64,000 bases of DNA from Qipengyuania xiapuensis (GTDB lineage Bacteria > Pseudomonadota > Alphaproteobacteria > Sphingomonadales > Sphingomonadaceae). The stretch covers positions 434,001-498,000 of the forward strand of contig NZ_JAIGNL010000001.1 in assembly GCF_019711395.1 (NCBI RefSeq). The letters run 5' to 3'. Below the pieces are notes generated by a model. It made no database searches. It was not told the origin of the DNA and saw nothing but the letters and a program-made list of their open reading frames with translations. Each line of letters opens with the position of its first letter. Positions within the stretch are counted from its first letter, which is position 1. This document shows positions 5,997 through 34,510 of the stretch, in pieces. The translations under genes were made by a program, and so were the position numbers.

Positions 5997-6010
5997 GAGC
6001 GGTCCCGCTC
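5997..6010. terminator. Small inverted repeat between convergent stops, possible terminator
   Basis: GAGCGG and CCGCTC, two bases apart, lie exactly between the NfeD stop and the convergent gene ending at 6009. There is no T-tract and the loop is very short, so a terminator role is only a guess from position. Confidence 0.2.
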
Positions 6011-6959
6011 AGGCCGACAGGCGCGGCTCGAAGCGGCCGTGCTTGCGGTAGCGGGTCATCCACTTGTCGAGGAACAGGCCGAGCGGCTTGGGCTCGATGC
6101 CGAACTTTTCGAAACCCGGGTAGTCTCCGCTTGCGACATTGCCCTGCTTGAGCAGGCCCCACTGGTCGCTGCCCATCGGCGTGCCCGGCAGGGCCGCGAA
6201 GGTCGCGGATAGGGCGTCGGGCATCGGCAGGAAGGTGCGCTTGCGGTGCTGCGCATCTGCGATCCGCTGGTTGATGTCCATCATCGCCAGCTTCTCGGGA
6301 CCTCCCAGCTCGTAGGTCTTGCCGCCGTGCTTGGCCGGATCTTCGAGGCTGCGTGCGATCGCCTCGGCGACATCGTCGACATAGACGAGCTGCAACTCCG
6401 CTTCCGGTGCGAAGACAGGCAGCACCGGCAAGGTCGAGATCAGGCCGCCGAACATGTTGAGGAAATTGTCGTCCTTCCCGAAGACGATGCTCGGGCGAAT
6501 GATGGTCGCGTTCTTGAACGCTTCGGTCACCTTGCGCTCGCCGCGATGCTTGGCAGCGGCATAGTCGTTGCGCGTGTCCTCGTCGGGTTCGGCGGCAATG
6601 GCGCTGACATGCACGAAGGCGTCCGCACCCTGCTTGGCGGCAGCCTCGGCCATCCAGCCCGGCGCATCGCCCATCAACTTGTAGAGATCGCCTTCGAAGC
6701 TACCGACCAGGTTGACCACGGCATCGGCGCCTTCGATGCAGCGCTCGACGCTCTGGCGGTCGGTCGCATCGCAGCGCGCGAACTGCATCTGGCCGAGATT
6801 GGCGAGCGGCTTGAGGCTGAAAGCCTTTTCAGGATTGCGTGCCGCGATCCGCAGGCGCGCACCCCGTTCGAGCAGGGCCTGCGCCACGTAATTGCCGAGA
6901 AAGCCGCTTCCGCCCATCAGGACGACGAGTTTGCCGTTAAGCGCGCTGCTGTTTGCCAT
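6009..6959 (-). CDS. NAD(P)-binding Rossmann protein, complex I NDUFA9-like
   Basis: A short-chain-dehydrogenase-like 'atypical' SDR of the complex I NDUFA9 subunit family found across alphaproteobacteria. The nucleotide-binding signature is 'VVLMGGSGFLGNYVAQ' near the N-terminus. 'GADAVVNLVGSFEG' and 'HVSAIAAEPDED' match the family's NAD(P) site and catalytic-loop region. 'TIIRPSIVFGKDDNFLNMF' is a strong NDUFA9-type signature. The ATG at 6959 follows an AAGGCAG element and removes an unconvincing 26-residue extension. Role: assembly or stabilisation of respiratory complex I, inferred from the family. Confidence 0.88.
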   Translation of the reverse strand: MANSSALNGKLVVLMGGSGFLGNYVAQALLERGARLRIAARNPEKAFSLKPLANLGQMQFARCDATDRQSVERCIEGADAVVNLVGSFEGDLYKLMGDAPGWMAEAAAKQGADAFVHVSAIAAEPDEDTRNDYAAAKHRGERKVTEAFKNATIIRPSIVFGKDDNFLNMFGGLISTLPVLPVFAPEAELQLVYVDDVAEAIARSLEDPAKHGGKTYELGGPEKLAMMDINQRIADAQHRKRTFLPMPDALSATFAALPGTPMGSDQWGLLKQGNVASGDYPGFEKFGIEPKPLGLFLDKWMTRYRKHGRFEPRLSA

Positions 6960-7127
6960 TATCTGCCTTGCAAGTTGGAATTTCGGGGCCGCCTGTAAAC
7001 GCAACCCGCATCCACTCGCAAGCGTTCCTGCGCGCAAGGTGCGAATAGCGTTGACAAGACTCGCACCCCTTCGCTAGTGGCGCGCCCCTACCCGCAAGCA
7101 GTGCATTGATGACCTGCTCGCATGTGT

Positions 7128-7214
7128 GCCCAGATGGCGGAATTGGTAGACGCACCGTCTTCAGGTGGCGGCGCTCGCAAGGGCGTGGAGGTTCGAGTCC
7201 TCTTCTGGGCACCA
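7128..7214 (+). tRNA. tRNA-Leu (anticodon CAG)
   Basis: An 87-nt class II tRNA including the encoded CCA. The acceptor arms are GCCCAGA and TCTGGGC. The anticodon stem CCGTC/GGCGG encloses the loop TTCAGGT, giving anticodon CAG (reads CTG). A long variable arm (CGCTCGCAAGGGCG) and TTCGAGT T-loop are present. It sits at the junction between core genes and the defence island and is the probable integration site of the adjacent recombinase. Confidence 0.96.
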
Positions 7215-7228
7215 AATTCACACTCGTA

Positions 7229-7313
7229 ATTGTTCGCTGATGCTTGCTAAGCCCCCCAGAAAACTGCGATAAATTGGGCATGGCCTGATCGCGATTGTTC
7301 GCGAGCGTTTGCT
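7229..7313 (+). repeat. Imperfect 20-bp direct repeats next to the attachment site
   Basis: Two copies starting ATTGTTCGC and ending TTGCT, at 7229-7248 and 7294-7313, match at 15 of 20 positions and start 65 bp apart. They lie between the tRNA end and the integrase. Position suggests arm-type integrase or excisionase binding sites, but this is inference. Confidence 0.4.
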
Positions 7314-7320
7314 GCAAATC

Positions 7321-7337
7321 AGCCCCCATTGGGGGCT
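7321..7337. promoter_or_regulatory. Perfect 8-bp-arm palindrome upstream of integrase start
   Basis: AGCCCCCA and TGGGGGCT flank a single T. The site is 47 bp before the chosen integrase ATG and just after the second direct repeat. It may be an operator or a recombination-complex binding site; there is no T-tract that would favour a terminator. Confidence 0.35.
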
Positions 7338-7383
7338 AATTCGGGCCAAAAGAACTTGGCTCGAAAGGCAATTGGCCCCCAGT

Positions 7384-8571
7384 ATGCGGCTCACGAATCT
7401 TACTATCCAAAGTGCAGAGCCGAGTCAGCGGCCCTGGAAGCTTTACGACGAAGGCGGCCTTTTTCTTCTCATCAACCCAGGTGGGACGAAATCTTGGTAC
7501 CTGAAGTACCGTTTCCTCGGGCGCGAGAAGAAGCTTAACCTGGGCACTTACCCGAGTGTTTCGCTGAAAGATGCGCGCGTCGAGCGCGACAAAGCGCGTT
7601 TGCAGCTGGCGGAGGGCACTGATCCGGCGCGCGAGAAGAGGCTGCGCCTGGCGGCCGCAAAGCTTGGTGCTGGCAACACGTTCAAGATCGTTGGCGAAGA
7701 GTATCTCGAGAAGATCGCCAAGGAAGGGCGTGCAGCTGTCACGCTCAGAAAGTCTCAGTGGCTTTTTTCGCTCTTGGAACGCGATCTAGGGGCCTTGCCA
7801 ATCCACAGCATCCAGCCGGCGGAAGTGTTGATCCCGCTTCGCAAGATTGAGGCGAAGGGCAACTACGAAACCGCGCGCCGTATGCGCTCCCTGGCTGGAC
7901 GCATTTTTCGTTATGCGATTGCGACTTCACGGGCGAACTCGGACCCAACTCAGTTTCTTCGCGGAGCATTGATCACTCCGAAGGTCGAACATCGGCAAGC
8001 AATCTTGGAGCCAAGAGCGGTAGGTGCGCTCCTGAGAGCTATCGATGGCTTCAAAGGTCAGCCGCTAACCCAGCTTGCACTAAAGCTCATCCCACATGTC
8101 TTTGTTCGACCTGGAGAGCTGCGCCGAGCCGAGTGGCCTGAATTCGATTTCGATCGTGCGATTTGGACTATTCCTTCGACGAAAATGAAGATGCGACAAC
8201 CACACATGGTTCCGCTCTCGCGTCAGTCGCTGGAGCTCCTTCGAGAAGCGCATGTGCTCAGTAGTACGCAGCAGTACGTGTTCTCATCCTTGTATCCAGG
8301 CACCAGGCCGATGTCGGAGAATACGATCAACGGAGCCTTGCGAAGGCTGGGATATTCCGGTGAGGAAATGACCGCTCATGGGTTTCGCGCATTGGCCAGT
8401 ACTTTGCTAAATGAGTCAGGCAAATGGAACCCGGATGCTATCGAGAGAGCTCTTGGCCACCAGGAAGCAAACTCGGTCCGCGCTGCCTATTATCGGGGGC
8501 AGCATTGGAACGAGCGAGTGGAGATGGCCCAGTGGTGGAGTGATCATCTTGATGAGCTAAGGGCAAGCTAA
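7384..8571 (+). CDS. P4-type tyrosine recombinase / integrase (DUF4102 N-terminus)
   Basis: A 395-aa site-specific recombinase that would integrate and excise the island. The N-terminal DUF4102 arm-binding domain is visible ('YDEGGLFLLINPGGTKSW', 'KKLNLGTYPSVSLKDAR'). The catalytic domain carries R242 ('VRPGELRRAEW'), H332 and R335 ('HGFRALAS'), H359 ('LGHQE') and a Tyr nucleophile at 369 or 370 ('AAYYRG'). The complete R-H-R-H-Y set suggests it is active. ATG 7384 (MRLTNLTIQ) is preferred over the longer open frame starting at 7309, because P4 integrases begin shortly before the DUF4102 motif. Location immediately downstream of tRNA-Leu is typical of the family. Confidence 0.93.
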   Translation: MRLTNLTIQSAEPSQRPWKLYDEGGLFLLINPGGTKSWYLKYRFLGREKKLNLGTYPSVSLKDARVERDKARLQLAEGTDPAREKRLRLAAAKLGAGNTFKIVGEEYLEKIAKEGRAAVTLRKSQWLFSLLERDLGALPIHSIQPAEVLIPLRKIEAKGNYETARRMRSLAGRIFRYAIATSRANSDPTQFLRGALITPKVEHRQAILEPRAVGALLRAIDGFKGQPLTQLALKLIPHVFVRPGELRRAEWPEFDFDRAIWTIPSTKMKMRQPHMVPLSRQSLELLREAHVLSSTQQYVFSSLYPGTRPMSENTINGALRRLGYSGEEMTAHGFRALASTLLNESGKWNPDAIERALGHQEANSVRAAYYRGQHWNERVEMAQWWSDHLDELRAS

Positions 8572-8677
8572 TCGTGCAATAGGTTCATTCTTGGCACGAC
8601 CTACCCCGCGCGCCACGTTGCCAAAACAACTAGAGCTCGCGTCTAGAAGGCACAGATCGCGAAGAGGTTGGTAAATT

Positions 8678-9643
8678 CTACCTTGAGAACGGCTCATCGG
8701 CTTCTGGGAAGCCCGAAGTATCGTCAAGCCCGGACACTGTTAAATGGACTGTGCTGATAGGACCCTTTCGCCATTCTTCGTCTAAATCGCTTGCGTCTCC
8801 GCCGCCGCCACCATCTTTAATCGTCGTTGCGTCAGCCATGAACTCGACGGACACTCTGTTGCCGCGCAGTGTGGTCGGGTCTGCTTTTACGATCGGCTTG
8901 GCGGCGGTGACCCTGAGAAGTTCGTCCACGGTATAAGACCAATCATCGCTGCCTCCAAGGATCGCCTCACGGGAACAGCTCCTGTCACCGGTAGCCATCT
9001 TAGCCAGATAGGTTCCCAGGTCGATCTGACCAGTGAAGCATGGACGAGAAGTCTGCGGTAGCCATTGTAGCCAATTTGCGGTTGAGAGCTCGATGCTGCC
9101 GTACTCGGCTGTAAAGGCCGGATCGCCAACCAGCCCGGCGGCCAGATCGCGCGAGCGTCTATCATAGGCAGCATCGACAAACTCGAAGCTTGGCAACCAT
9201 GCAAGAAGTTCGTGCTGAAGCCATTCCCTGCCTGATGGCCGGACAGCGCCGCGTTTTAGTAATTTTGCTTGGACAAGCGCAGCGCGCCGATCGACTAGCC
9301 CAGAAATGGGATCCTTATAATCAATCACCACAAGCAGGTCCGCGAGCTCGCATCGCGCGTGCGGCGTTGGCGTTTTGGGCGCAAACGGTGAAGGCACGCG
9401 CGGGAACTGGACCCACGGCCGAGAATGGCAAAATACAGCCTGGAGTTGGAGTTTAAGTCCGTGCGACGCAAGTATCGGTGCCCAGCAAGTAGCGATCCCA
9501 TCGAAGCCATCTAATGTTATCGTGCGAAGTGCTGATACCTCGCCCCGGGGCCTCGGTGTCCGATTACCGCCATGGGCAAGGACCTTTGCAATAGCCGAGC
9601 TCGCCGGGGGGGCAAGGAGTGGCTGCATTTGTTTCGGTAGCAT
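8678..9643 (-). CDS. Hypothetical protein, possible PD-(D/E)XK-type nuclease
   Basis: A 321-aa protein of no firmly recognised family. Around residues 100-130 it has 'CELADLLVVIDYKD' followed by 'RRAALVQAKLLKRG'. The pattern of acid, hydrophobic strand, then QxK is like the variant PD-(D/E)XK active site used by some restriction-type enzymes. A Gly-rich stretch (DGGGGGDASD) lies near the C-terminus. ATG 9643 is preceded by AAGGGG at good spacing. It converges with the integrase, leaving about 100 bp with nothing recognised between them. Function is inferred from motif and setting only. Confidence 0.5.
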   Translation of the reverse strand: MLPKQMQPLLAPPASSAIAKVLAHGGNRTPRPRGEVSALRTITLDGFDGIATCWAPILASHGLKLQLQAVFCHSRPWVQFPRVPSPFAPKTPTPHARCELADLLVVIDYKDPISGLVDRRAALVQAKLLKRGAVRPSGREWLQHELLAWLPSFEFVDAAYDRRSRDLAAGLVGDPAFTAEYGSIELSTANWLQWLPQTSRPCFTGQIDLGTYLAKMATGDRSCSREAILGGSDDWSYTVDELLRVTAAKPIVKADPTTLRGNRVSVEFMADATTIKDGGGGGDASDLDEEWRKGPISTVHLTVSGLDDTSGFPEADEPFSR

Positions 9644-9813
9644 TTGTACGGCCCCTTGCGATCAGCCAAAAATTCCCGAATAGGCGATCCAGCAAGTAAT
9701 TGGATTGCCAAGGATTACCAGAAAATTCAGGGAGTGAGGCCAATGGCTTCGAACCAGCGGCAATCAGTATTGGACCGACGGAATAACAAACTGGCTATGG
9801 AAAGGAGGAGTGG

Positions 9814-10536
9814 GTGTTCGATAGCTTCAAGCGGAACGAGGATCTGAAAGGGCGTAAGAAACTCCAATGCAACTCTTGCAAGCGTCAGACAATCCATATG
9901 CTTGAGGCTCAGTGCGTCGGCAGGTGGCAGGACGATTTTGGTCGTGGCCACAGCGCAGACGGGGGAACTGAATTTTCCCTCTACCGGTGTGGGGCTTGTG
10001 ACGAAGTCTGTTTCGAAACTTCATCGTGGTGCAGCGAGGAGTACGATCACGACGAAGACGGAAATATGTATTTACCTCGAACAGAGGCACAGTACCCGCC
10101 GCCTTCCTCCGCCGACTTTGCTTTCGACACCGATTTTACGCCACATGACCTCAATGAGCTGATCGATGAAATGTTATACGCACTGGCGGGGAGTAAACTT
10201 CGATTGGCGACCGTCGCCTTAAGGATGGTTGTAGAGTTCATCGTCACCGATACAAAGTGCTCGGGTCGGACTTTGAAGAAGAAGATTGATGACTTATATG
10301 CCAAGGGACACGTCGACGAAACTCAGTTGGCCTTGCTTCACAAGATAAGAGAAAAAGGCAACGCAGGCGCGCACGAGCGCATAGCTATGAGCCGCAATGA
10401 AATGGTGGCCGGGATTGGCATCATTAACCTTCTTTTGGAGAAGCTTTATAATAGTCCAAAAAGACAGGAAGAGGTCATTAGGAAGGCAAACCAGGCCTTC
10501 CAAAAGGATTCAGAGGACAAGGCAGCAGTCGACTAG
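9814..10536 (+). CDS. DUF4145 domain protein with N-terminal zinc ribbon
   Basis: A 240-aa protein. Residues ~18-60 contain CxxC pairs ('CNSCKRQ', 'CGACDEV') suggesting a zinc ribbon. The C-terminal half is the helical DUF4145 module ('LRMVVEFIVTD', 'LHKIREKGNAGAHE'), often found next to or fused to restriction and abortive-infection genes. GTG 9814 was chosen because AGGAGG lies five bases upstream. The 170 bp before it hold no recognised gene. It heads a rightward run of genes up to 17533. No enzymatic activity can be claimed. Confidence 0.72.
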   Translation: MFDSFKRNEDLKGRKKLQCNSCKRQTIHMLEAQCVGRWQDDFGRGHSADGGTEFSLYRCGACDEVCFETSSWCSEEYDHDEDGNMYLPRTEAQYPPPSSADFAFDTDFTPHDLNELIDEMLYALAGSKLRLATVALRMVVEFIVTDTKCSGRTLKKKIDDLYAKGHVDETQLALLHKIREKGNAGAHERIAMSRNEMVAGIGIINLLLEKLYNSPKRQEEVIRKANQAFQKDSEDKAAVD

Positions 10537-11914: not shown

Positions 11915-12937
11915 ATGACGAAGACTTGGGGCGTACATATGCCAGAGTGGGTAGGGGACGATCCCATCGAAGGCGGGTTTGTAGTTATTGGCTGGGGCAG
12001 GCTGGGCAATATTTTTGAGATCCCGAATGATCGCGAGGAGTTCAAGCGCCGCTTGGAGCGTGCCTATCCAGAGAAGAAACCAGGGGCGATTCCGGTGGAT
12101 GCTGGAACGCTATTTCGCTTTGCTCACGAGATCGCTGAGGGTGACACCATCGTCTACCCATCGAAGCACAATCGTATGGTAAACATTGGGAAGGCGACAG
12201 GAAAGCGTTGGCACGGCCCTCCCTTACAGGACGGCGAAGATACCTTTCCGAATTATCTCGGAGTTGAATGGCGTGTGAGTTTCCCGCGAAGCGAATTTTC
12301 GCAGGCGGCTCTGAATGAGATCGGCTCATTCATTTCGCTCTTTCGGATAAGGCAACATACGAGTGAATTTCTCAAAAGATTGGGCGAAGGTCACAGTGAT
12401 GGGCGAAGCGCCTCTGATCAATCCGATGCGGTAACTGATGATATTGCGTCCCAATCGGCGTCAAAGTTGGCCGAAGAAACCACACAAGATTTTGTTATCA
12501 GACGAATTCACCAATCACTGACTGGTTTCGAGTTCGAGCACTTCAGCGCCCATCTCATGGAGTGTTTAGGATACACGGCGAGGGTTACTGAAAAGACCGG
12601 AGATGGCGGAGTCGATATTATTGCGCATACCGACCAACTAGGCTTTCAACCTCCCATCATTAAGGTCCAATGCAAGCGACAAACAGCGCAGGTTGGTGAG
12701 CCAGAGGTAAGTCAATTACTTGGCACGCTAGGCGAAGGAGAATTTGCTCTCTTTGTAACTCTTGGTTCTTATACTCGCCAAGCACGCAGTCGGGAGCGTA
12801 ACACGCCAAGGCTCAGGCTTCTTGATGGTGAGGATTTGGTCGAGTTGATTTTGGAGCACTATCCTCAAATGTCTCCTCGCTATCGGACTATGTTGCCGCT
12901 GAAGCAGATTTATGTACCGGACATAATCAGCGACTGA
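11915..12937 (+). CDS. EVE/YTH-like reader fused to Mrr-type restriction endonuclease
   Basis: A 340-aa predicted type IV restriction enzyme. Residues ~1-150 resemble the EVE/YTH fold that binds modified bases: 'GGFVVIGWGRLGNIF', 'FRFAHEIAEGDTIVYPSKHNRMVNIG' and 'GVEWRVSF'. Residues ~200-310 are an Mrr nuclease domain: 'FSAHLMECLGYTARVTEKTG', 'GDGGVDIIAH' (active-site Asp) and 'IKVQCKRQ' (Q-x-K). The combination predicts cleavage of DNA carrying modified cytosine or similar bases, for example in phages. ATG 11915 is preceded by AAAAGGGGG. The reader domain closely resembles the one in the McrB at the right end of the window. Confidence 0.85.
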   Translation: MTKTWGVHMPEWVGDDPIEGGFVVIGWGRLGNIFEIPNDREEFKRRLERAYPEKKPGAIPVDAGTLFRFAHEIAEGDTIVYPSKHNRMVNIGKATGKRWHGPPLQDGEDTFPNYLGVEWRVSFPRSEFSQAALNEIGSFISLFRIRQHTSEFLKRLGEGHSDGRSASDQSDAVTDDIASQSASKLAEETTQDFVIRRIHQSLTGFEFEHFSAHLMECLGYTARVTEKTGDGGVDIIAHTDQLGFQPPIIKVQCKRQTAQVGEPEVSQLLGTLGEGEFALFVTLGSYTRQARSRERNTPRLRLLDGEDLVELILEHYPQMSPRYRTMLPLKQIYVPDIISD

Positions 12938-12984: not shown

Positions 12985-13194
12985 ATGGGGCATAGCAGCT
13001 TCTCGCTTAAGGGAGTGGCCACTGTGCCTTTACGCGCTGCCTCCATACGCCGTGAAGGGTATGATTTACGGGTAGAAATTGATCAATGCCCCTTTAGGTC
13101 AGCCGCCGAAAATTGGATTGAAGTGCTTGGTCTCGTGATCATCATTCCGGCGAGCCGACATTCGCCCAAAATAAGGAAGCGCCTTGTCAACTGA
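12985..13194 (+). CDS. Small ORF upstream of the STAND-like gene
   Basis: A 69-aa open frame that overlaps the start of the next gene by 11 bases. It has no recognised domain and no obvious ribosome site. A hydrophobic run 'VLGLVIIIPAS' could be a short membrane segment. It may be a leader or regulatory peptide for the large gene that follows, or chance. Confidence 0.25.
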   Translation: MGHSSFSLKGVATVPLRAASIRREGYDLRVEIDQCPFRSAAENWIEVLGLVIIIPASRHSPKIRKRLVN

Positions 13195-16100
13195 CTATAT
13201 CGATCTCAACCGAACCTTCAGGAAGCTTCCTGAACGCATTGCTGAGACAGACGAATTCGACTTCGAATCCGTTTTGGGGTTTGGCAAAGGGCTCGCTTGG
13301 GGAGATCTCCTCACGAAACGGAGGGTAATTCTTCTTTCGGAGGCTGGAACAGGAAAAACTCAAGAAATTCGCCATTCTGCGCAACACGAACACCGGTCGG
13401 GAAATCTTTCCTTTTTCCTTCGGTTGGAACACGTAGCAGACGATTTCGATATAGCTTTCGAAAATGTAGCCGGATCTCGTTCGGATTTCGAAGATTGGCT
13501 GAAATCCAAAGAAGAGGCACGCATCTTTCTGGATTCAGTCGATGAAGCCCGGCTCAAGAGCCCGATGGAATTTGCACGGGCCATTCGCAAAATTGGCGCA
13601 ATGGCAAAGCCAGCACTGCACCGTGCAAGAATTGTCATCTCGAGCCGTGGGTCTGCATGGAAGCCGATATCTGACCTGCAGCTTTGTAACGATCACCTTA
13701 CTTTCAAAATGCCACGGGAGGAGGAGGAGCAGCGAGGTGCGGGTTCGAATGGAAATTTACCCAATGTGGATCGGAACCGGGCCCCACTCATCTCTGACGA
13801 AATGGAAAATGGGGAAGGCGTAAATCAGCACTTTGAGGTCTTTAAGCTTGATGATCTAAGTGGTTCTCAAGTCCAGCAGTTTGCTGAGGCCAAAGGCGTT
13901 AAAGATGCAGAAGCTTTCTTGGATGCCATCGAGCGTGCAGACGCATGGTTACTCACCCATCGCCCACAAGATTTGGAAGAGCTGATTAGCTTTTGGCTGA
14001 CCAATGATCGGATTGGAAATCGAAGGGAGATAATGGAGGAGTCCATTGCGTTCCGTCTCACTGAGCGCGATCATAAGCGGGAAGAGGTCAGCACACTTAC
14101 TTCCGAAAGGGCTTTAGAGGGCGCAGAGTTGTTGGCAGCCGCTGCAACACTTACTCAGCAATCAGCGATAAACGTGCCAGATGGTGCAAAGAGCCAAAGC
14201 GGGCTGTCCCCGTCTGACTTTCTGACCCAATGGATCCCCGCGGATATCCAAACCCTCTTGGGAAGGCCTTTGTTTGATGAAGCGCTCTACGGGTCAGTCC
14301 GATTTCATCATCGATCGCAAAGGGAATATCTATGCGCCAAGTGGTTTCATAAGCTGCTTCAGCGGCAAACTTCGAGACGGGCTATCGAGGCGATACTGTT
14401 TAAGGAACAATACGGATTAGTCGTAATCCCACCCACTCTTCGACCAGTTCTAGCGTGGCTGATCCTTTTTGACGGACGAGTGCGGGAAAGGGCCCTCTCA
14501 ATTGCCCCAGAATTGATCTTCGAAGGGGGAGAGCCTGCAGCACTGCCCTTAGAAACTCGAACGCGGATTTTGCATCAGGTTTGCAATAAGATCGCGAAAG
14601 GCGATACTGCTCACACACCGGTAGATTACAGCGCAATTCAAAGATTTGCAGATGCAGGCCTATCGGATGAGATTAGGCGTTTGATCGCGAAGTATCCGAA
14701 GAACGAGGACATAGTTTGGTTTTTGCTACGCATGGTGTGGCAGGGCCAAATTGAGAAGCTTTTACCGGAGGCAATTTTCTACGCATCCAAGCGGCAAGTC
14801 GGCCGGCATGTCCAGATTGCCGCGATCAGAGCTGTCATTGCAGTTGGTAGCGACGAAGATGTGCGAGGGCTCCGCGCAAAGCTTCTCAAAACAAAAGAAC
14901 TCAAGCGCGACGTTTTGGCCGAGTTGGTCGCTAGGTTGCCGCCGGACCGTGAGGGTATTGATTGGCTTATTAAAGCACTGGGAAAGACCCGGAAGAAAGA
15001 GAGGTACAGTTCGGACGGAGTGGGTCGCGCCCTTACCGATTATCTCGCGGCCTTGCCTTCGTCCGAGCACGCCTACCTGTTAGCAGGATTAGCAGCCCTG
15101 CTCAGAAAGAAACCAATCGTAGAGCGCCGATATTTCGAAGTCTCTGATAAGCACGGATGGTTGCTCAAGCCAGCTGCGAAATTGATTGAGCGCATGATAG
15201 ACGAGAGACACCCCGCGTGCCTTGGGCAGGACAGTCTGTTCGTATTGTTCAACTTGCCCTCTGTCAGCGATCACGGGGACTGGGAACTCCGCGATATCAA
15301 ATCTGAAATCCCGAAAGTCTTGCCTCAATGGAGCGAATTGAATGACGCGCTCTTCTGGCATTCGGTAGCCGTCGCGCGTCGGCACAAGAAAAGAAAAAAC
15401 GGTCGAAGGACGACAAGCCACATAGATGCAATGATCTGGCCGACCTTCTGCAGGTTCGTACCCGAGGATTTCGACCGCGTCGTTCAATACATCGGCTCCC
15501 AGCCCCTGCGTGACGACCGTTTGGTCGCACTTTCGCTGGCGTTCTCCCTGTACGTAGAGAGAGGGCGTCCCCGCAAATGGCGGGATCAATTGAAGCGCGC
15601 AACTAAGGGTAAGCCTTCGCTGAAGGAGAAGTTGAACTCCTTGCTGCATCCGCCAAGAATGAGCGAGCAAGCACGAAGCTATCTTAGGCAGGAAGCTCGA
15701 TGGAAGAGGCGCGACAAAGAGCGGACAGAGCTTGAGGAGAGTAACAAAAGAGAATGGAGAGAAGCGCTCGCGGCTAGCCCCGACAAGCTTCGCAATCCAG
15801 GCCTTCGAAGTCCTCATCAAATCTCCACATGGCAATGGCACGTCCACGAACGAATGCGTGATTTGGATGGAGACACGAGTAAGTGGTCAACCGGAAATTG
15901 GCGTGTCCTCATCAAAGAGTTTGGCACGAACGTAGCTGAGGCATTCCGCGATGGCGTGGTAGCCTATTGGCGGCACAACAGCCCGCGTGTGGTATCGGAT
16001 GGCAAGGTGCGCAATGAAACGCCACATACCACCATTTTCGGACTGACCGGTGTTAATATCGAAGCTGCCGAAGAACGAAACTGGGCCTCGAAGTTATCAA

Positions 16101-17533
16101 GGGACGAGGTTGAAGTCGCAACTCGTTACGCTTTCAATGAACTCAACGGATTTCCGGATTGGTTTGAAGGCCTCTATCGTCACCATCCAAAATGGGTTTC
16201 GGATTTGGCAACGACCGAAGTCAGGTATGAACTGACGAAGACGCCGAGCAAGAGCGATAGCCACTATTTTCTGAGTGATTTGAATTGGTCAGGTCAGTTT
16301 CTTGATAGATCTTTGGCGAATCCAATTCTCGAACACCTATCCAGTTCGGAACCGAGAAATTTAAGCCTTCTCGAGCAAGCTTTGAATATCGTCGTGAGAG
16401 AGGCTCACTCAGCAAAAGATTTGGGTGAGATTGCAGCGAAAAAATCCACGCTGCGTTCATTAGATCATTCAGCTATTTGGTTCGCAATATGGGTGGGTGT
16501 TGATCCAGAAGCGGCCATTCCGGCACTTGCCGATCGCATTCAAGCTATTCGCCGAAGGCACGACCGCGTGCGATTTGCGATGCTGTTCGTCACCCGGCTA
16601 GTGGGGGGGCGACATGAGAAAGCGCTGGCTAGCCAAGCATATCGAACTGCAAAATATCTCCATAGTCTTATCATCCTCATGCACCAGTCGATTGAAGAGA
16701 AGGACGACATCAGGCGATCTGGCACAGGAGCTTATACACCTGGTCTAAGAGACGAGGCTCAAGACGCGCGAAGCCGTTTGTTCAGCATGCTCAAAGAGCT
16801 TCCCGGGAAGGAGGCATTTCTGGCGATCCAGAGCTTGAGCACCTGCCATCCAGAAGATGCTTCCAGACCATGGATGCGAAAGCACGCGCAATCTAAAGCA
16901 GAGGCAGAGGCGGATCTCGAAGCGTGGACGCCGAAACAAGTTACTTCTTTCGAAGCGGAACAAGAGAGAGTTCCTGGCAACCATCGGCAGTTGGCCGAGT
17001 TGGCATTGTTGCGCTTTGAGGATCTGAAAGCGGATCTGGAAAATGGAGATAGCAGTATCGCGAGTATACTCGCGACCGTCAAAAGTGAGACGGAAATGCG
17101 AAAATTCATCGGCGGCTGGCTTCGAGACACTGCGCGAGGACGCTATACGGTACCCCAGGAGGAAGAGTACGCCGACGCCAAGAGGGCAGATATCCGATTT
17201 CACGGAATTGGCTTTGATAACCCTGTGCCGACAGAGCTGAAGCTCGCGGATAATGGCTGGTCGGGGTCCAAGCTGTTCGAGCGATTGGAAAATCAACTTT
17301 GCGGTGACTACCTTCGCGACCAGCGTTCTTGTAGAGGTTTGTTCGTGCTAGTTTACCGTGGAGAGAAGGCTACCTGGCAAGTGCCTCGGAGCGGAGAAAA
17401 GGTAAACTTCTCCGAACTTGTAGAATCGTTGCAAGGTTATTGGCTGGAGATCAGCCCTCGTTACCCTGACGTTGAGGACATTCAAGTGGTAGGTATCGAC
17501 CTTACCAAACGTTATGACCGCAAGGAAAAATAG
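13184..17533 (+). CDS. Large STAND/NACHT-like NTPase with C-terminal PD-(D/E)XK-like motif
   Basis: 1449 aa. The N-terminal NTPase has a Walker A 'LLSEAGTGKT' (residues ~50-59), a Walker B-like 'ARIFLDSVDEARL' (~111-123) and a strand 'ARIVISSRGSAW' resembling the sensor-1 region of STAND ATPases. Residues ~450-1250 are helical and repeat-like, plausibly a HEAT/TPR-type sensor scaffold. Near the C-terminus 'ADIRFHGIGFDNPVPTELK' places D1336, E1351 and K1353 as a PD-(D/E)XK-like site, followed by a helix and 'GLFVLVYRG'. The TTG start has AAGGA at the right distance. Inferred role: a phage-triggered STAND sensor with nuclease output. The order (NTPase first, nuclease last) is the reverse of most Avs proteins. 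Confidence 0.7.
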   Translation: MSTDYIDLNRTFRKLPERIAETDEFDFESVLGFGKGLAWGDLLTKRRVILLSEAGTGKTQEIRHSAQHEHRSGNLSFFLRLEHVADDFDIAFENVAGSRSDFEDWLKSKEEARIFLDSVDEARLKSPMEFARAIRKIGAMAKPALHRARIVISSRGSAWKPISDLQLCNDHLTFKMPREEEEQRGAGSNGNLPNVDRNRAPLISDEMENGEGVNQHFEVFKLDDLSGSQVQQFAEAKGVKDAEAFLDAIERADAWLLTHRPQDLEELISFWLTNDRIGNRREIMEESIAFRLTERDHKREEVSTLTSERALEGAELLAAAATLTQQSAINVPDGAKSQSGLSPSDFLTQWIPADIQTLLGRPLFDEALYGSVRFHHRSQREYLCAKWFHKLLQRQTSRRAIEAILFKEQYGLVVIPPTLRPVLAWLILFDGRVRERALSIAPELIFEGGEPAALPLETRTRILHQVCNKIAKGDTAHTPVDYSAIQRFADAGLSDEIRRLIAKYPKNEDIVWFLLRMVWQGQIEKLLPEAIFYASKRQVGRHVQIAAIRAVIAVGSDEDVRGLRAKLLKTKELKRDVLAELVARLPPDREGIDWLIKALGKTRKKERYSSDGVGRALTDYLAALPSSEHAYLLAGLAALLRKKPIVERRYFEVSDKHGWLLKPAAKLIERMIDERHPACLGQDSLFVLFNLPSVSDHGDWELRDIKSEIPKVLPQWSELNDALFWHSVAVARRHKKRKNGRRTTSHIDAMIWPTFCRFVPEDFDRVVQYIGSQPLRDDRLVALSLAFSLYVERGRPRKWRDQLKRATKGKPSLKEKLNSLLHPPRMSEQARSYLRQEARWKRRDKERTELEESNKREWREALAASPDKLRNPGLRSPHQISTWQWHVHERMRDLDGDTSKWSTGNWRVLIKEFGTNVAEAFRDGVVAYWRHNSPRVVSDGKVRNETPHTTIFGLTGVNIEAAEERNWASKLSRDEVEVATRYAFNELNGFPDWFEGLYRHHPKWVSDLATTEVRYELTKTPSKSDSHYFLSDLNWSGQFLDRSLANPILEHLSSSEPRNLSLLEQALNIVVREAHSAKDLGEIAAKKSTLRSLDHSAIWFAIWVGVDPEAAIPALADRIQAIRRRHDRVRFAMLFVTRLVGGRHEKALASQAYRTAKYLHSLIILMHQSIEEKDDIRRSGTGAYTPGLRDEAQDARSRLFSMLKELPGKEAFLAIQSLSTCHPEDASRPWMRKHAQSKAEAEADLEAWTPKQVTSFEAEQERVPGNHRQLAELALLRFEDLKADLENGDSSIASILATVKSETEMRKFIGGWLRDTARGRYTVPQEEEYADAKRADIRFHGIGFDNPVPTELKLADNGWSGSKLFERLENQLCGDYLRDQRSCRGLFVLVYRGEKATWQVPRSGEKVNFSELVESLQGYWLEISPRYPDVEDIQVVGIDLTKRYDRKEK

Positions 17534-17914: not shown

Positions 17915-18742
17915 CTAGCGACTTGGCCGCAGGGTCCGATCCTTATTGCGTAGGTCCGCGACATAGCTCTGGCCGTTTTCGATGCGGGCTATTTCAAAAA
18001 GGCCTGTCGCATCGAACAACGCCGTAAAGTTTCGTACGCCATAATTGCGAGGATCAATCGGTGCTTGCCTTCGCGCTGCAATTCCTGCTGCGGACATGGC
18101 TGCCCAACCGTCTTCGCGAGCTGTTGCTTCGACGGCGCCGCGCAGGATAGTGACTAGCTTTGTGTCCTGCGAAAGAGGCCTGCCTGCAGCTTTCGCATCA
18201 GGCGCGGCTTCCACGCTTGATTCAGCTTGAGCCTTTTTCTTAGGCTTGGCTTTTTGAGCCAGCGGTGCGGCGGGGACGAGCGGTTCGTCTAGGCTTTCAA
18301 TGTAAAGAAACGCTGTGCAGGCGTTGACGAAGGGGGCCGGCGTTTTGCGTTCGCCAAAGCCATATACCTCGAGCCCATTTGCTTTGAGCTGCATCACTAG
18401 CGGTGTGAAATCGGCATCGCTGGACACCAGACAAAATGCGTCAGGCCTCTGCGTATAGAGCAATTCCATTGCGTCGATAACAAGCGCGATGTCGGTAGCA
18501 TTCTTGCCGGTCGAGAAGCTGAACTGCTGGATCGGTCGGATCGCGAAATCGTGCAGCTTCTCTTTCCAGTTCTTCAGGCCAGCGCCGGCCCAATCGCCGT
18601 AAGCCCTCCTGATATTAGCCGTGCCATACTTAGAGAGTTCAGCCAGTATCTCAGCAACTTTATTGTGGGACACATTGTCAGCGTCGATCAGTAGCGCAAT
18701 GCTGCGATCCGACGAGCTGCGCGGCTTATCTTCTGGATCCAT
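17915..18742 (-). CDS. NYN-domain (LabA/DUF88-type) predicted RNase with OST-HTH/LOTUS C-terminus
   Basis: About 275 aa. The NYN (PIN-like) domain shows its metal-binding acids in order: 'IALLIDADNVS', 'GKNATDIALVIDAMELL' and 'FCLVSSDADFTPLV'. After a Lys/Ala-rich linker, the C-terminal ~80 residues ('LVTILRGAVEATAREDG' to 'NFTALFDATGLFEI') look like an OST-HTH/LOTUS RNA-binding domain. ATG 18742 has GAGGAA just upstream and is preferred to the TTG at 18763. NYN proteins are predicted ribonucleases. This one is widespread in bacteria and not specific to defence; its position in the island is suggestive only. Confidence 0.85.
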   Translation of the reverse strand: MDPEDKPRSSSDRSIALLIDADNVSHNKVAEILAELSKYGTANIRRAYGDWAGAGLKNWKEKLHDFAIRPIQQFSFSTGKNATDIALVIDAMELLYTQRPDAFCLVSSDADFTPLVMQLKANGLEVYGFGERKTPAPFVNACTAFLYIESLDEPLVPAAPLAQKAKPKKKAQAESSVEAAPDAKAAGRPLSQDTKLVTILRGAVEATAREDGWAAMSAAGIAARRQAPIDPRNYGVRNFTALFDATGLFEIARIENGQSYVADLRNKDRTLRPSR

Positions 18743-19140
18743 CTGTTCCTCTAAATGTCCCAATAGTTCTATTCGTATTCAATACTACCGGCGCTTGCCA
18801 TCGGCCGCTCGAAAGAACATTCATGCCTTTTGGACTATGCGCCAGCGGCATTCCTCCACAAACCTCTTCAAATTTATGAATTACTCTGAAGAACCTCGCC
18901 CAGATGTGAGAAAATCGAAGTCTGACCGGTTGCTTGGAGCCTGCCAGGTGCACGATCCAACGATCAGGTTTGCCTCAGAAAACTCAACCCGGTCCATTCC
19001 GAAGCCTGTCTCAGGCAACCAAAACTTGAAGTCATGGATACTAAAGGTAAATCTGATTGGGAGTAGGGATATTAGAGCTGTTGGTTTGCGACGAATTGCA
19101 GGCTGACCAGATTCCATGTCACCGGGGGCGATAGCGCATA
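18743..19140. other. Intergenic, nothing recognised
   Basis: About 400 bp between divergent genes. Open frames here are short and lack ribosome sites. It presumably contains the two divergent promoters, but no clear -35/-10 pair stands out. Confidence 0.5.
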
Positions 19141-22100
19141 GTGGGAAGTCTAGCATCCTCGTCGGATGAGGTTACGCGTCTTCTCGAGCGTTGTGTCTCA
19201 GTTGACCTGGAGGTCAATCCAAACACGGCTGAGGTGTTCGCGTTCGCTGCTGTTTGGCACGATGAGCGCCAACCAATTCTGGCAGGAGCAAAGGGCCTTG
19301 CCCAGGCTCTTGATCAGCTCGAAGCACGTCTGGCCGAAGCTCGTCACTGCCTCGGACACAATATCATTCGGCATGACCTGCCGCATATTGCTGCAAATCG
19401 TCCTCACCTTTCCGCACTTGCCGAGGCGCCGATTGATACTTTGTGGCTCAACCCCCTCGCGTTTCCAGAAAACCCGTATCACCATCTAGTGAAACATCAC
19501 CTCGATGGGCGCCTTCAAGCAGGACACATCAACGATCCCGCCAAAGATGCTCGTCTCGTTTTCGAGCTCTTTGAAGATCAACTTGGTGCATTGGGCCGGC
19601 TCAATGAGAAAAATCCGGAGACCGTCCTCGCTTACCATTACCTGACAACTCGCCTCGAGAAGTCCGATGGATTCGACGCTGTCTTCACGTCCACCCGCGG
19701 TGAGCCGCCGCCGAGCCAGGACCAGGCCAAGGCCGCGGTCCAAAAGATTCTGGACAGACAAGCGTGCCGCGGGGCAATTGATATTCTTGTCGACACGATC
19801 TCGAGCCCGCGGAACGGCTGGCCAACGGCTTATGCAGTTTCATGGGTCACAGTGGCGGGTGGCAATTCAGTGATGCCGCCCTGGGTGCGGGCCCAGTTTC
19901 CCGAAGCATCCGACATTGTGAAAAGTCTGCGGGATACTGATTGCAGGTCTCCGGATTGCGAGTGGTGTCGAAAAATGAACGATCCTCGCGAAGCTTTGCG
20001 GCGATGGTTTGGATTTGAGGGATTTCGTAAGAAGCCCGCGGACAAGGATGGACGCCCACTGCAGGAGCGTATCGTCGAAGAAGCGATGCTAGGAGAGAGC
20101 ATCCTCGGCATTCTTCCGACAGGAACCGGAAAGTCCGTCTGCTACCAGATTCCCGCACTTTCGAAGTTCGAGAAAGTCGGCGCCCTAAGCGTAGTCATTT
20201 CTCCTCTGGTAGCTCTTATGAACGACCAAGTGCAGGGCATGGTGCGGCAGGGCATCTCTTCGGCTGTCACCGTCAATGGCATGTTGTCACTTCCAGAGCG
20301 GCAACACGTGCTCGATCAAGTCCGGCTGGGCGATGCAAGCATCCTTCTCATTTCACCAGAGCAGCTGCGAAGTGTGGGTGTTCGGTCGGTTCTCAAGCAG
20401 CGTGATGTAGGTTTGTGGGTGCTCGATGAGGCGCACTGTGTATCGAAATGGGGCCACGATTTCCGGCCGGATTACCGCTATATCGGCCGGTTCATAAAAG
20501 AGTTCTCAGGCGACCGAGATCCAGCCCCCGTACTCTGTTTGACAGCTACGGCGAAGCCAGAGGTTGTCGCTGACATCAAAGCGCACTTCCAGGAAAAGCT
20601 TCAGTTTGATCTGCAGCTTCTCGATGGCGGCGCTGTGCGGACCAATCTTGAATTCGAGGTGCGCTCGACAAAACCTAGCACCAAGCTCAGCGATATACTT
20701 GAAGTCATCCAGGCTAAGTTGCCGGCCGAGGGCGCCTCAGGCGCTGTAATTTACTGCTCATCGCGCAAGCAGACCGAGACGGTCGCCGACTTTCTCAAGC
20801 AGCAAAAGATTGAAGCCGATTTCTTTCACGCAGGCCTTACGCCTGATCAAAAAAAGGAGGTGCAGGAGCGCTTCCGCGTCGGTGAATTGCGTGTCATCGC
20901 AGCGACCAATGCATTTGGCATGGGCATTGACAAGCCCGATATCCGGCTGGTGGTCCATGGTGACATTCCAGGCTCTTTAGAGAATTACTTGCAGGAAGCT
21001 GGCCGAGCTGGTCGCGATCGGGAACACGCAAGCTGTGTGCTCCTCTTCTCCGAAGATGATGTAGAGCGGCAGTTCACCCTTTCTGCCCGCTCAAGGCTTG
21101 CCCGTCATGAGATCGGAGCCATTCTCAAAGCACTTCGGCGGCTGGATGATAAGACCACCAAGTCCGGAAATGTAGTCGCGACGTCGGGAGAGATTGTTCG
21201 GGCTGAGCAGGACCACGAGTTTGAGCGTGATCGGCTGACCGACGATACTCGCGTAAAAACAGCTGTGGCCTGGCTTGAGGAAGGGAAATTGCTCGCTCGC
21301 GAGGAAAACCGTGTCCAGGTTTTTCCTTCCTCACTCTCCGTGAAGACATTGGCTGAGGCAAAAGAGATCCTCGACAAGACCGATCTCTCCCTCAAGCGTC
21401 GCAATGAGCTCATTGCGATTGTCCGCCACCTTATGAATGCTGAGCCTGATGAAGGCATTTCAACTGACGAGCTCACGGGAGCAAGTGGCCTGAGCAATGG
21501 CGCATTGCCGAAGGCCATGCACGACCTTGAGACCCTAGGAATTGCCAAGAACGACCTCGCCCTGACTGTCTTCGTACACGTAGGGGTCGAGCGGCAATCC
21601 ACTGAGCGGCTGGAGCGGGCTGCAGAGCTTGAAGCAGCGCTAATTGCGGTTCTTCAAGAGGCCGAGCCAGATGCCGAAGGAGAAGGCGCGTTCCCTCTTC
21701 AGCTTAGCCAAGTTTGTCAGAAACTTCACGATGAGGGGTTTGAGAAGGCTCGACCTGATATCATCGAAAGAATGCTTGTCGGACTGTCTCATGACGGTCG
21801 CGACCAGGATGGAGGCAAAGGCAACCTCCACATTCGAAAGTTCTCTCGCGATACTCTCTTCATCAAGTTGCAACGCACTTGGGACGTCACAGCTCGTAGC
21901 GCTCGCATTCGTAGGGACGGCGCAGCTAACCTATTGCAGCACCTTGTAGGGAAGGTGCCGAAAGGCAGGCGAGGCAAGGACCTGCAGGTCGAGACGACAG
22001 CAGGCGAGCTCATGTCGACGCTTACGGGAGACGCTTACCTCAAGTTCGACGTGAAGAACTTCGTGAAGCTATTCAATCGCTCCCTCATGTGGCTCCACGA

Positions 22101-24261
22101 GCAAGAAATCCTCGTACTCGGCAAGGGGCTGAGCGTTTTCCGACCAGCGATGACAATCCATCTGGCGCCAAGTGGGGGGAAGTTTACGCAGCAACATTTT
22201 ACACCTTTGGAGGAGCATTACCGGGAACAGACTATCCAGACGCACGTGATGGCGGCCTATGCGCACAAGGGCCTGCTCTCCATGCATAAGGCGATGAGGC
22301 TGTCTGAAGACTACTTCGTTCTAGACCAGGAGAAGTTTCTGGACCGCTGGCTACCTGGCGAGAGGACTGCCATTCGGAGGCAGACAACGCCTACATCTTG
22401 GCAGGCAATCGTAGATGATCTGAACAACCCTATTCAGCAAAAGATTGTCAGCGATGACCGAGAAAAAACCAATGTTCTGGTCCTGGCGGGACCAGGTTCC
22501 GGTAAGACGCGGACACTAGTGCACCGCATCGCCTACCTCGTGAGGGTAAGGCGAGAAGACCCTAACGGCATTCTGGTACTGAGCTACAATCGTCATGCAG
22601 TAACTGAGATACGATCTCGATTGCGTCAGCTCATTGGCGAAGATGCACACGGCATCACTGTTTCGACATGCCATGCCCTGGCTATGCGACTGGTGGGTAC
22701 GAGCTTCGTGGGTGCGTCAGCCGACAGCTTTGATTTCGACAATGTCATTCGCGAAGCTGTCACGCAGCTTCAGGGTGAAGGGTTGAGCAAAAGAGAGGCT
22801 GAAGCGCAGCGCGAAGCCTTAATGCAGGGTTATCGCTGGATTTTGGTCGATGAGTATCAGGATATCGGACCAGAAGAGTATGATCTGATCTCCGCTGTGG
22901 CGGGCCGTTCACAAGAAGACACCGATCAGAAGCTCAGTCTCTTTGCAGTCGGCGACGATGATCAGAACATCTACGCTTTTGGCGGGGCCTCTGTTGACTT
23001 CATTCGCCGGTTTGAAGCCGAGTATGATGCAAAGCCATCTTACTTGATCGAGAATTATCGCTCCACGCCAAACATTATTGCAGCGGCCAATTCGGTAATT
23101 GCACCTGCTGTGCAGCGCATGAAAATTGGTCATGACATTACGGTCGATCGTCAAAGGGTCAGGGGCCCCAAGGGCGGGGCCATGCAGACCATCGACCCTG
23201 TTGCGCACGGCCGTGTTCAGATCCTCAAAACGGCCGGGGGTGACATCGCAAATGCGATCGCTGCAGTTGATGAGCTGGTACGAATCTCCGACCTAGATCC
23301 GGATTGGGATTGGTCGAAAACAGCGATCATCGCGCGCAACTGGAAGCAATTGGAGCCGGTGCGGAGTTACGCGGAAAAGCTCGGCATCCCGGTGGAACTT
23401 GCCAATGAGAACCTGCCGAGCATCTGGCGTCTGCGTGAGACACAGGCCTTGGTGGAAGCCTGTCGACGCCATCCCGATAGCCTGCTGACCGCAAGCGAAA
23501 TCGAGGGGTTTCTTCACGATCTTCCCGCCAGCCGTTGGTCGGACCTTCTTGCCAAGGGTATCGCAGACCTGCGGCGAGAAATTGGGCAAAGCAGGATCGC
23601 GTTTCCTGATCTCCTCGAATGGATTGCAGAGTGGTGTCGGGATGCTCGCATCCAACAGCATGGTGTCCTGCTTATGACCGCGCACAGGGCGAAAGGTCTT
23701 GAGTTCAACGATGTCGTTATCCTCGATGGCGACTGGCAGGGATTGTCCAAGGGCGAAGACCCGGATGCCCCGCGGCGCCTTTTCTACGTGGCGATGACTC
23801 GGGCAAAGCGGTCCCTTGCGGTCCTTACAGACGGCTCACATCCCTACCTGCGACACGAGAGGGAAGAGGTGCTGGTTCGCGATGTCGCCCAAAATCCGCA
23901 AACCCAACTTATAGACCAGCATCGGTATGACCCGCCCAATATGGAGCTGGTAGATCTCTCCTATGCAGGTCGCTTGTACAGCGGGAATAATGCTCTTCAA
24001 GCGATCAAAGCTGCGAGGATCGGTGACCCCGTAAAATTGTCACGTGGTGAGAAGGCCTGGATGATCCACAACGCGGCAGGGCAAGTCATCGGGCGGATGG
24101 CTTACTCATTTCATCCACCTAAAGGTTGGAAGGTCGAGAAGGCCACGGTTGGGGCAATCATTCAGTGGCGGAAGTCTGACAACCAGGAAGAGTATCGCGA
24201 ATACATTAAGCGCGAACAATGGGAGACGATCCTGCCTGACATCACCTATGCCCCAGCCTAG
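19141..24261 (+). CDS. Three-enzyme fusion: DEDD exonuclease, RecQ helicase, UvrD/Rep helicase
   Basis: 1706 aa. Residues ~18-150 form a DnaQ-like 3'-5' exonuclease: D22 and E24 ('VDLEV'), D79 ('GHNIIRHDLPHI') and D136 ('NDPAKDARL'). The His usual for DEDDh enzymes is replaced by N131. Residues ~300-680 form a RecQ-type SF2 helicase: Walker A 'ILPTGTGKSVCYQ', 'VLDEAHCVSKWGHDF' and 'NYLQEAGRAGRD'. Residues ~1100-1560 form a UvrD-type SF1 helicase: 'LAGPGSGKTRTLVHR', 'LVDEYQDIGPEE', 'VGDDDQNIYAF' and 'FYVAMTRAKRSLAVL'. A CysCys-containing segment (~265-285) precedes the RecQ part. The start is GTG. Predicted to unwind and degrade DNA; probably defence-related by context. Confidence 0.88.
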   Translation: MGSLASSSDEVTRLLERCVSVDLEVNPNTAEVFAFAAVWHDERQPILAGAKGLAQALDQLEARLAEARHCLGHNIIRHDLPHIAANRPHLSALAEAPIDTLWLNPLAFPENPYHHLVKHHLDGRLQAGHINDPAKDARLVFELFEDQLGALGRLNEKNPETVLAYHYLTTRLEKSDGFDAVFTSTRGEPPPSQDQAKAAVQKILDRQACRGAIDILVDTISSPRNGWPTAYAVSWVTVAGGNSVMPPWVRAQFPEASDIVKSLRDTDCRSPDCEWCRKMNDPREALRRWFGFEGFRKKPADKDGRPLQERIVEEAMLGESILGILPTGTGKSVCYQIPALSKFEKVGALSVVISPLVALMNDQVQGMVRQGISSAVTVNGMLSLPERQHVLDQVRLGDASILLISPEQLRSVGVRSVLKQRDVGLWVLDEAHCVSKWGHDFRPDYRYIGRFIKEFSGDRDPAPVLCLTATAKPEVVADIKAHFQEKLQFDLQLLDGGAVRTNLEFEVRSTKPSTKLSDILEVIQAKLPAEGASGAVIYCSSRKQTETVADFLKQQKIEADFFHAGLTPDQKKEVQERFRVGELRVIAATNAFGMGIDKPDIRLVVHGDIPGSLENYLQEAGRAGRDREHASCVLLFSEDDVERQFTLSARSRLARHEIGAILKALRRLDDKTTKSGNVVATSGEIVRAEQDHEFERDRLTDDTRVKTAVAWLEEGKLLAREENRVQVFPSSLSVKTLAEAKEILDKTDLSLKRRNELIAIVRHLMNAEPDEGISTDELTGASGLSNGALPKAMHDLETLGIAKNDLALTVFVHVGVERQSTERLERAAELEAALIAVLQEAEPDAEGEGAFPLQLSQVCQKLHDEGFEKARPDIIERMLVGLSHDGRDQDGGKGNLHIRKFSRDTLFIKLQRTWDVTARSARIRRDGAANLLQHLVGKVPKGRRGKDLQVETTAGELMSTLTGDAYLKFDVKNFVKLFNRSLMWLHEQEILVLGKGLSVFRPAMTIHLAPSGGKFTQQHFTPLEEHYREQTIQTHVMAAYAHKGLLSMHKAMRLSEDYFVLDQEKFLDRWLPGERTAIRRQTTPTSWQAIVDDLNNPIQQKIVSDDREKTNVLVLAGPGSGKTRTLVHRIAYLVRVRREDPNGILVLSYNRHAVTEIRSRLRQLIGEDAHGITVSTCHALAMRLVGTSFVGASADSFDFDNVIREAVTQLQGEGLSKREAEAQREALMQGYRWILVDEYQDIGPEEYDLISAVAGRSQEDTDQKLSLFAVGDDDQNIYAFGGASVDFIRRFEAEYDAKPSYLIENYRSTPNIIAAANSVIAPAVQRMKIGHDITVDRQRVRGPKGGAMQTIDPVAHGRVQILKTAGGDIANAIAAVDELVRISDLDPDWDWSKTAIIARNWKQLEPVRSYAEKLGIPVELANENLPSIWRLRETQALVEACRRHPDSLLTASEIEGFLHDLPASRWSDLLAKGIADLRREIGQSRIAFPDLLEWIAEWCRDARIQQHGVLLMTAHRAKGLEFNDVVILDGDWQGLSKGEDPDAPRRLFYVAMTRAKRSLAVLTDGSHPYLRHEREEVLVRDVAQNPQTQLIDQHRYDPPNMELVDLSYAGRLYSGNNALQAIKAARIGDPVKLSRGEKAWMIHNAAGQVIGRMAYSFHPPKGWKVEKATVGAIIQWRKSDNQEEYREYIKREQWETILPDITYAPA

Positions 24262-28155: not shown

Positions 28156-28203
28156 ACATGAAGATTCGTAATCTGGCCGATGATATTGCTGAGGTTGCGT
28201 TGA

Positions 28204-34449: not shown

Positions 34450-34510
34450 GTATTTATGGATTTCATAGTGTCGAAGCATTGCCGGCACTGAAAGTTTGGG
34501 GGCGTCCTTC

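Follow-up and report, generated by a model that had tools for sequence, protein, structure and literature searches.

The window analysed here, a stretch of 64,000 nucleotides from Qipengyuania xiapuensis, encodes a 1449-aa protein (P0001) that raises a question of classification. NTPase motifs stand at its N-terminus and a nuclease-like motif at its far C-terminus, and the original prediction, noting that this reverses the order usual in Avs proteins, proposed another class of large sensor-effector. Is the inverted order real, to what family does the protein belong, and what might such a protein do? We consider it probable that P0001, a relative of immune sensors found in animals and plants, is an NLR-like antiphage switch of the HyoA family with an inverted layout. 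The family itself is already known; what is unusual is the inverted order, together with hints of exchangeable effectors. Coordinates of the features discussed are collected in Table 1.

Table 1. Features discussed in the text. Positions refer to the window unless a locus is named; residues are those of P0001.
Feature	Position	Strand	Remarks
tRNA-Leu	7128-7214		island left end
Integrase	7309-8571		adjoins tRNA-Leu
HyoA-family protein gene	13184..17533	+	1449 aa, entire reading frame including stop; NF058534 match
Walker A EAGTGKT, residues 53-59	13340..13360	+	G57 in 109/110 sequences, K58 in 109/110
Walker B IFLDSVDEA, residues 113-121	13520..13546	+	D117, D120 and E121 in 110/110
R155, arginine of ISSR strand	13646..13648	+	invariant, 110/110 sequences
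RFHHRSxREYLxA motif, residues 373-387	14300..14344	+	H376 in 106/110
Helical-repeat region, residues about 456-1240, presumed sensor	14549..16903	+	helical nearly throughout in the two models
PD-(D/E)XK-like nuclease domain, residues 1285-1443, presumed effector	17036..17512	+	alignment A4, element order, EruA homology
D1336, predicted catalytic	17189..17191	+	D in 107/110, gap in 3
E1351-x-K1353, predicted catalytic	17234..17242	+	E in 106/110, K in 106/110
Fic and nuclease-free HyoA gene pair	L011 5799-10702; L216 2814-7699		HyoA start overlaps upstream Fic gene by 4 bases

Family membership and the N-terminal NACHT module

The reading frame begins at a TTG codon at 13184, with an AAGGAAG stretch a few bases 5' of it, and stays open up to the stop ending at 17533. 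Homologues start near the same point, which is consistent with the choice of TTG, and the minus strand of 13184-17533 has no comparable frame. In a profile search of NCBIfam release 20.0, P0001 scored 1663.9 bits to NF058534, "NACHT domain-containing antiphage protein HyoA," well over its curated cut-off of 1200, in an alignment pairing residues 8-1443 with model positions 1-1430 of 1430. The match is full-length, the lengths agree, and no architectural difference appears as far as the model shows. All 18 members of our first alignment, which comprised the window protein plus plasmid and genome relatives, likewise match the HyoA model at E <= 1e-10. On this profile score P0001 is assigned to an already named antiphage family, its presumed antiphage role being taken from the NCBIfam description. 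The second-best NCBIfam model, EruA (NF058535), gave 189.6 bits, below its cut-off of 1000, and membership in that family was rejected. Profile scans returned no Pfam or PADLOC match to P0001 at E <= 1, and sequence comparison to solved structures gave chance matches only. In the literature searched, the name HyoA occurs only in an unrelated medical use, and the source publication for the family name was not found; the matches listed for EruA concern other subjects, one being an E. coli regulator that shares the name. The main text of the DefensePredictor paper, in the portion available, mentions neither Hyo nor Eru (PMC13092281).

Members of the NACHT class of STAND NTPases are recognized by a Walker A motif, a Walker B motif of the form D-x-x-D-E, and a conserved histidine in the winged helix. 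P0001 has all three, the histidine being H376, and both Walker motifs fall within the first 125 residues, as originally predicted. The one aligned sequence in which K58 differs, L017, fails to align over its N-terminal stretch. R155 occupies a sensor-1-like position and presumably has the corresponding role, while the motif containing H376 is one that we take to mark the winged-helix part of the NACHT module. Only about 40 residues lie upstream of the NTPase in P0001. The Pfam NACHT profile finds no match in P0001 at E <= 1 and matches 4 of the 18 members weakly (best E 5.1e-4); a divergent member can escape such a profile, and the miss was not treated as defining.

Structure prediction for the N-terminal half (residues 1-780, 83 sequences) reached a mean pLDDT of 85.3. 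The best matches to this model by Foldseek were NLRC4, NOD2, and NLRP3, with Avs4 at rank 19; by VIA, the comparison to NLRC4 (8fw2) gave Z 14.5 and rmsd 6.7 with 368 residues aligned, over residues 1-493, while Avs5 (9jap) gave Z 9.3 and Avs4 (8dgf) Z 8.9. The NTPase half is thus predicted to fold like known NACHT NLRs, unlike helicase or translocase motors. Animal NLRs, which supply the solved folds nearest to this half of P0001, carry CARD or PYD domains plus leucine-rich repeats and are not known to include a nuclease.

The order in P0001, with the NTPase first, the helical middle next, and the nuclease-like domain last, is real and holds throughout the family. Passages of PMC12169576 and PMC12931631 describe the effector-NTPase-sensor order as general for STAND proteins, and those in the latter place the Avs effector N-terminally and the Avs sensor C-terminally. 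The Avs/AVAST proteins Avs4 and Avs5 resemble P0001 in having a STAND NTPase, a long repeat region, and moderate similarity of the NTPase fold, but P0001 has its nuclease-like domain last. Membership of P0001 in Avs was rejected on grounds of wrong order and the lack of a PADLOC Avs match; no Avs model is found among the four PADLOC families touched by the 18 members. The clade 6 bNACHT proteins bNACHT25 and bNACHT32 also join a NACHT module to a PD-(D/E)XK nuclease, but there, as described in passages of PMC12169576, the nuclease, needed for defence, is N-terminal and the sensor C-terminal, the reverse of P0001. Of the proposal of another class, then, the separation from Avs and the inverted order hold up, but the class is not new, already bearing the name HyoA (NF058534). 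A widespread family with its effector at the opposite end would mean that N-terminal stacking is not a requirement for activation and that NLR logic can run in either direction along the chain.

The helical middle and the C-terminal nuclease-like domain

The middle of the protein, expected to be mostly helical, is almost all helix in both predicted models. Foldseek and VIA match the model of the C-terminal half to HEAT/armadillo and importin-like proteins (best Z 9.0), and a weak Pfam match to HEAT_2 occurs in 5 of the 18 members. We take the helical middle to be the likely sensor and the C-terminal tail the likely effector.

The site predicted at residues 1336-1353 is present exactly as described, with D1336, E1351, and K1353, and 14 residues between D and E. 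By itself the motif is weak: D-x14-E-x-K arises in 727 of 2000 shuffles of P0001, and a second instance occurs in P0001 itself, at residue 557. What raises it above chance is its conservation, since the homologue search called for by the original prediction recovered relatives in which the triad is complete in 106 of 110. The count over 110 aligned sequences excludes the window itself (L001), two reverse-strand fragments (L004 and L005), and five loci with frames of 1250 aa or less (L011, L020, L041, L092, and L106). The triad stays constant in the 106 with a whole domain, even in those that share as little as about 20% identity with the window protein. The four others are accounted for by a frameshift (L054), a contig end (L058), and two sequences that end or change before the domain (L065 and L102). 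L041, L047, L054, and L092 look like products of frameshifts, breaks, or insertions. Conservation across the domain extends to E1302, E1326, Q1371, and Y1376 in addition to the triad.

The model of the C-terminal half (residues 740-1449, 79 sequences; protein residue = model number + 739) has mean pLDDT 89.6 and pTM 0.63. It is helical up to about residue 1317 and continues as strand, strand, strand, helix, strand, helix, strand; the elements in model numbering are a helix at 563-578, a short strand at 582-583, strands at 598-602 and 609-615, a helix at 622-639, and a strand at 645-652. The PD-(D/E)XK core is an alpha-beta-beta-beta-alpha-beta arrangement in which D lies at the second strand and the third contains E-x-K. 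In the model D1336 sits immediately before the second strand and E1351-x-K1353 within the third, Q1371 and Y1376 lie in the helix that follows, and the near-invariant E1302 opens the helix preceding the first strand. The order was judged from secondary structure, the first strand being just two residues long by DSSP. Structure prediction, the check proposed for the far C-terminus, thereby gave the element order of a PD-(D/E)XK-like domain, and the absence of such a fold did not appear. From element order in the expected sequence, residue positions, and conservation, the C-terminal domain is predicted to be PD-(D/E)XK-like.

Searches for relatives of this domain outside the two named families were less informative. 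Foldseek and VIA lists for the C-terminal half are filled by repeat proteins, with rows covering model residues 8-504, outside the nuclease. Scanning 65 nuclease domains against Pfam yielded scattered single-member matches and no consistent family, and a PDB profile search for solved structures gave chance matches only. Links by sequence to PDDEXK_4, SduA_C, and Mrr were tried and rejected, with hhalign probabilities of 0.4, 0.3, and 0.1, no better than the 0.2 to 0.5 obtained for control segments taken elsewhere in HyoA; the profiles were small and crude, making this comparison nearly powerless. Several of the frames used for these three families were wrong or fragmentary because frames were picked by overlap with the middle of a locus, and PF08011 yielded no sequences.

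The C-terminus of EruA, on the other hand, is homologous to the HyoA nuclease (hhalign probability 98.0, E 1.6e-13, 18% identity), and the nuclease residues invariant in HyoA are also invariant in 17 of 17 EruA C-termini. EruA differs from P0001 in that its frames are mostly about 1330-1390 aa, and it stands as a separate sister family; to judge by these alignments, HyoA and EruA are two named families that share a NACHT module placed first and a homologous nuclease-like domain placed last.

Natural breaks at the nuclease boundary and a proposed switch

Several relatives depart from the family pattern just where the nuclease begins. L102, an IMG/VR contig, encodes at 6001-9927 a HyoA relative in a P2-like prophage that has a linker and a predicted transmembrane helix in place of the nuclease. 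The protein follows HyoA model positions 1-1247, and its final 75 or so residues include a strongly hydrophobic helix; the hydropathy maximum of 2.84 compares with 1.94 or less in 96 nuclease-bearing members. To judge from the translations, read by eye, one flank of the gene carries tail and lysis-like genes and the other flank portal- and terminase-like genes. Among viral contigs no close relative was found but L102 itself, leaving it a single example.

On two Rhizobium plasmids (L011 and L216), HyoA ends near the position equivalent to P0001 residue 1256 (model position 1245 in L011), and the L011 locus shows no nuclease match. The upstream gene that HyoA overlaps encodes a Fic protein (Pfam Fic, E about 1e-14) with the motif HPFLDGNGRVAR. 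At the protein level the two HyoAs share 94.7% identity, and the short form is kept by selection: dN/dS is 0.10 overall, and 0.05 across the final 58 codons. The DNA that the two loci have in common, 5083 bp, consists of the Fic-HyoA gene pair alone. The same Fic gene occurs at 97-99% identity in eight more Rhizobium records. The three of these that were examined have no HyoA match; in them, the match to the DNA of the pair runs a short way past the Fic stop into HyoA before breaking off, and one record matches again on the far side of HyoA, the pattern expected from a deletion. Two points count against Fic as the effector: its gene clearly persists without HyoA, and the two intact pairs belong to a single lineage.

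Two further loci lack the domain. L065, from a metagenome bin, follows the model as far as position 1252, after which come about 30 unrelated residues; no nuclease was found elsewhere in its locus. L020, from S. fredii, ends inside the conserved helical part, has IS630 copies nearby, and is probably decayed; four Sinorhizobium records (H50-H53), one of which was examined, have the same shortened coverage.

From these variants a broader reading can be drawn, to which we give slightly less than an even chance: HyoA and EruA may be NLR-like switches with an exchangeable C-terminal effector, usually a nuclease but a membrane helix in the P2-like prophage and, in the Rhizobium plasmid lineage, replaced by a Fic protein encoded by the overlapping upstream gene, the NACHT/repeat core serving as a general activator of whatever effector lies behind or beside it. 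If true, an exchangeable-effector class of this kind would run against the rule of N-terminal STAND effectors, and the natural replacements of the nuclease would be ready material for testing one NACHT core with unlike effectors.

P0001 itself probably opens with a NACHT ATPase-winged-helix module, continues as an extended arm of helical repeats, and ends in a PD-(D/E)XK nuclease. The arm would recognise a sign of phage infection, which may be a protein of the phage or a host protein that has been disturbed. Sensing would lead the NACHT module to bind ATP, or to exchange it, and then to form an oligomer; several nuclease domains brought together in this way would cut DNA and halt the infection, probably at the cost of the cell.

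A different division of labour, which we regard as unlikely, would have the C-terminal domain recognise the target, gripping either a DNA end or the DNA of the phage, and would leave the arm a structural role, the whole being an ATP-dependent nuclease of restriction type. A nuclease and an NTPase in one chain would fit such enzymes too, all catalytic residues are kept, so the domain could cut recognised DNA directly, and the genes neighbouring P0001 in the window are largely of restriction type. However, the resemblance of the NTPase half is to NACHT NLRs and not to helicase or translocase motors, the helical repeats, which span about 800 residues, look like recognition scaffolds, and nuclease-free versions exist, one lineage of them under purifying selection, a loss that a restriction enzyme could hardly afford.

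The same nuclease-free lineage bears on a second alternative, that the C-terminal domain is mainly an assembly or regulatory module and that some other activity, such as NTP depletion by the NACHT module or the action of a partner protein, stops infection. Selection on the short version (dN/dS 0.10) means that the core can work without the domain, and the Fic gene is a coupled neighbour in two records; yet a structural module would tolerate changes, and the triad is unchanged in all 106 whole-domain sequences, which makes this alternative decidedly improbable. The inverted switch with a C-terminal nuclease effector is the reading we prefer.

Distribution and genomic surroundings

Among 72,556 plasmid records, 68 match P0001, 39 of them covering 80% or more of the query at a single location, and annotation is mostly as hypothetical protein. 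Neighbourhoods were examined in 15 of the 68 records and then in two more, with neighbours compared by eye; they vary by record, and none but Fic was found in common among those examined. In genomes, 346 relatives were identified among 454 candidate stretches by one conserved pattern, and the best 80 of the 346, which were kept, span Proteobacteria, Bacteroidota, Chlorobi, Desulfobacterota, Planctomycetota, and others according to record titles. Surveys of narrower scope show how sporadic the family is. Across the class, 6 of 289 genomes match, including the window's own, and none of 14 control genomes does. Across the phylum, with the N-terminal half as query, 19 of 398 genomes match: twelve are HyoA-like (E below 1e-80, open frames of 1432-1519 aa), and seven are weaker (E 9e-23 or higher), all seven being found also by the EruA model. 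The nuclease domain is carried by 11 of 11 HyoA-like frames in this survey, the window's own aside. Of the 99 genomes in the relatives set, 5 match. Besides the window's own, two have a full-length copy (45 and 37% identity), one has a fragment interrupted by stops, and the weak match in the fifth is an EruA.

The gene is accessory, and its distribution, over plasmids, sporadic genomes, and one prophage, is a mobile one. That the protein is not defensive at all but an accessory enzyme that helps to maintain plasmids or the chromosome, as its many copies on large plasmids and the one examined copy that sits amid transfer genes might suggest, is very improbable in view of its sporadic occurrence in the genus, carriage by a P2-like prophage, defence-island context, and NCBIfam name.

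In the window, the HyoA gene lies in a genomic island that starts beside the tRNA-Leu and integrase genes, where G+C falls from 0.62-0.65 to about 0.52, and it has restriction and candidate defence genes around it. A search of the genome for another copy of the 3' end of tRNA-Leu, allowing up to one mismatch, found none, and promoter and terminator scans of the region returned fewer sites than in shuffles.

Directly upstream of the HyoA gene, at 11915-12937, is an Mrr-type restriction endonuclease, a PADLOC candidate of family PDC-S02 (E 8.9e-130). Downstream, a NYN nuclease with an OST-HTH/LOTUS domain (17915-18763, minus strand) separates the HyoA gene from a helicase fusion at 19141-24261, a single chain of 1706 aa in which a RecQ-like helicase is followed by a UvrD-like one. 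The minus strand at 25934-32975 encodes a DrmD-like SNF2 helicase (PADLOC E 8e-224), a 551-aa protein, and DUF2779 and Exo_endo_phos proteins. A cluster at 34496-48212 resembles parts of Druantia, Dpd, and DISARM combined, with a DruE/DpdJ-like helicase (1738 aa), a DpdE-like helicase, a DrmMI-like methylase, a DUF932 protein, and an HNH nuclease. Farther along, at 55624-59004, is an MkoA-like protein of 1126 aa with RNase_H_2 and AAA_11/AAA_12 helicase domains. At 60014-63993, a McrBC-type restriction component (PF10117) adjoins an 887-aa protein that matches a type II restriction enzyme and also contains a segment corresponding to positions of about 5-120 in PDC-S02.
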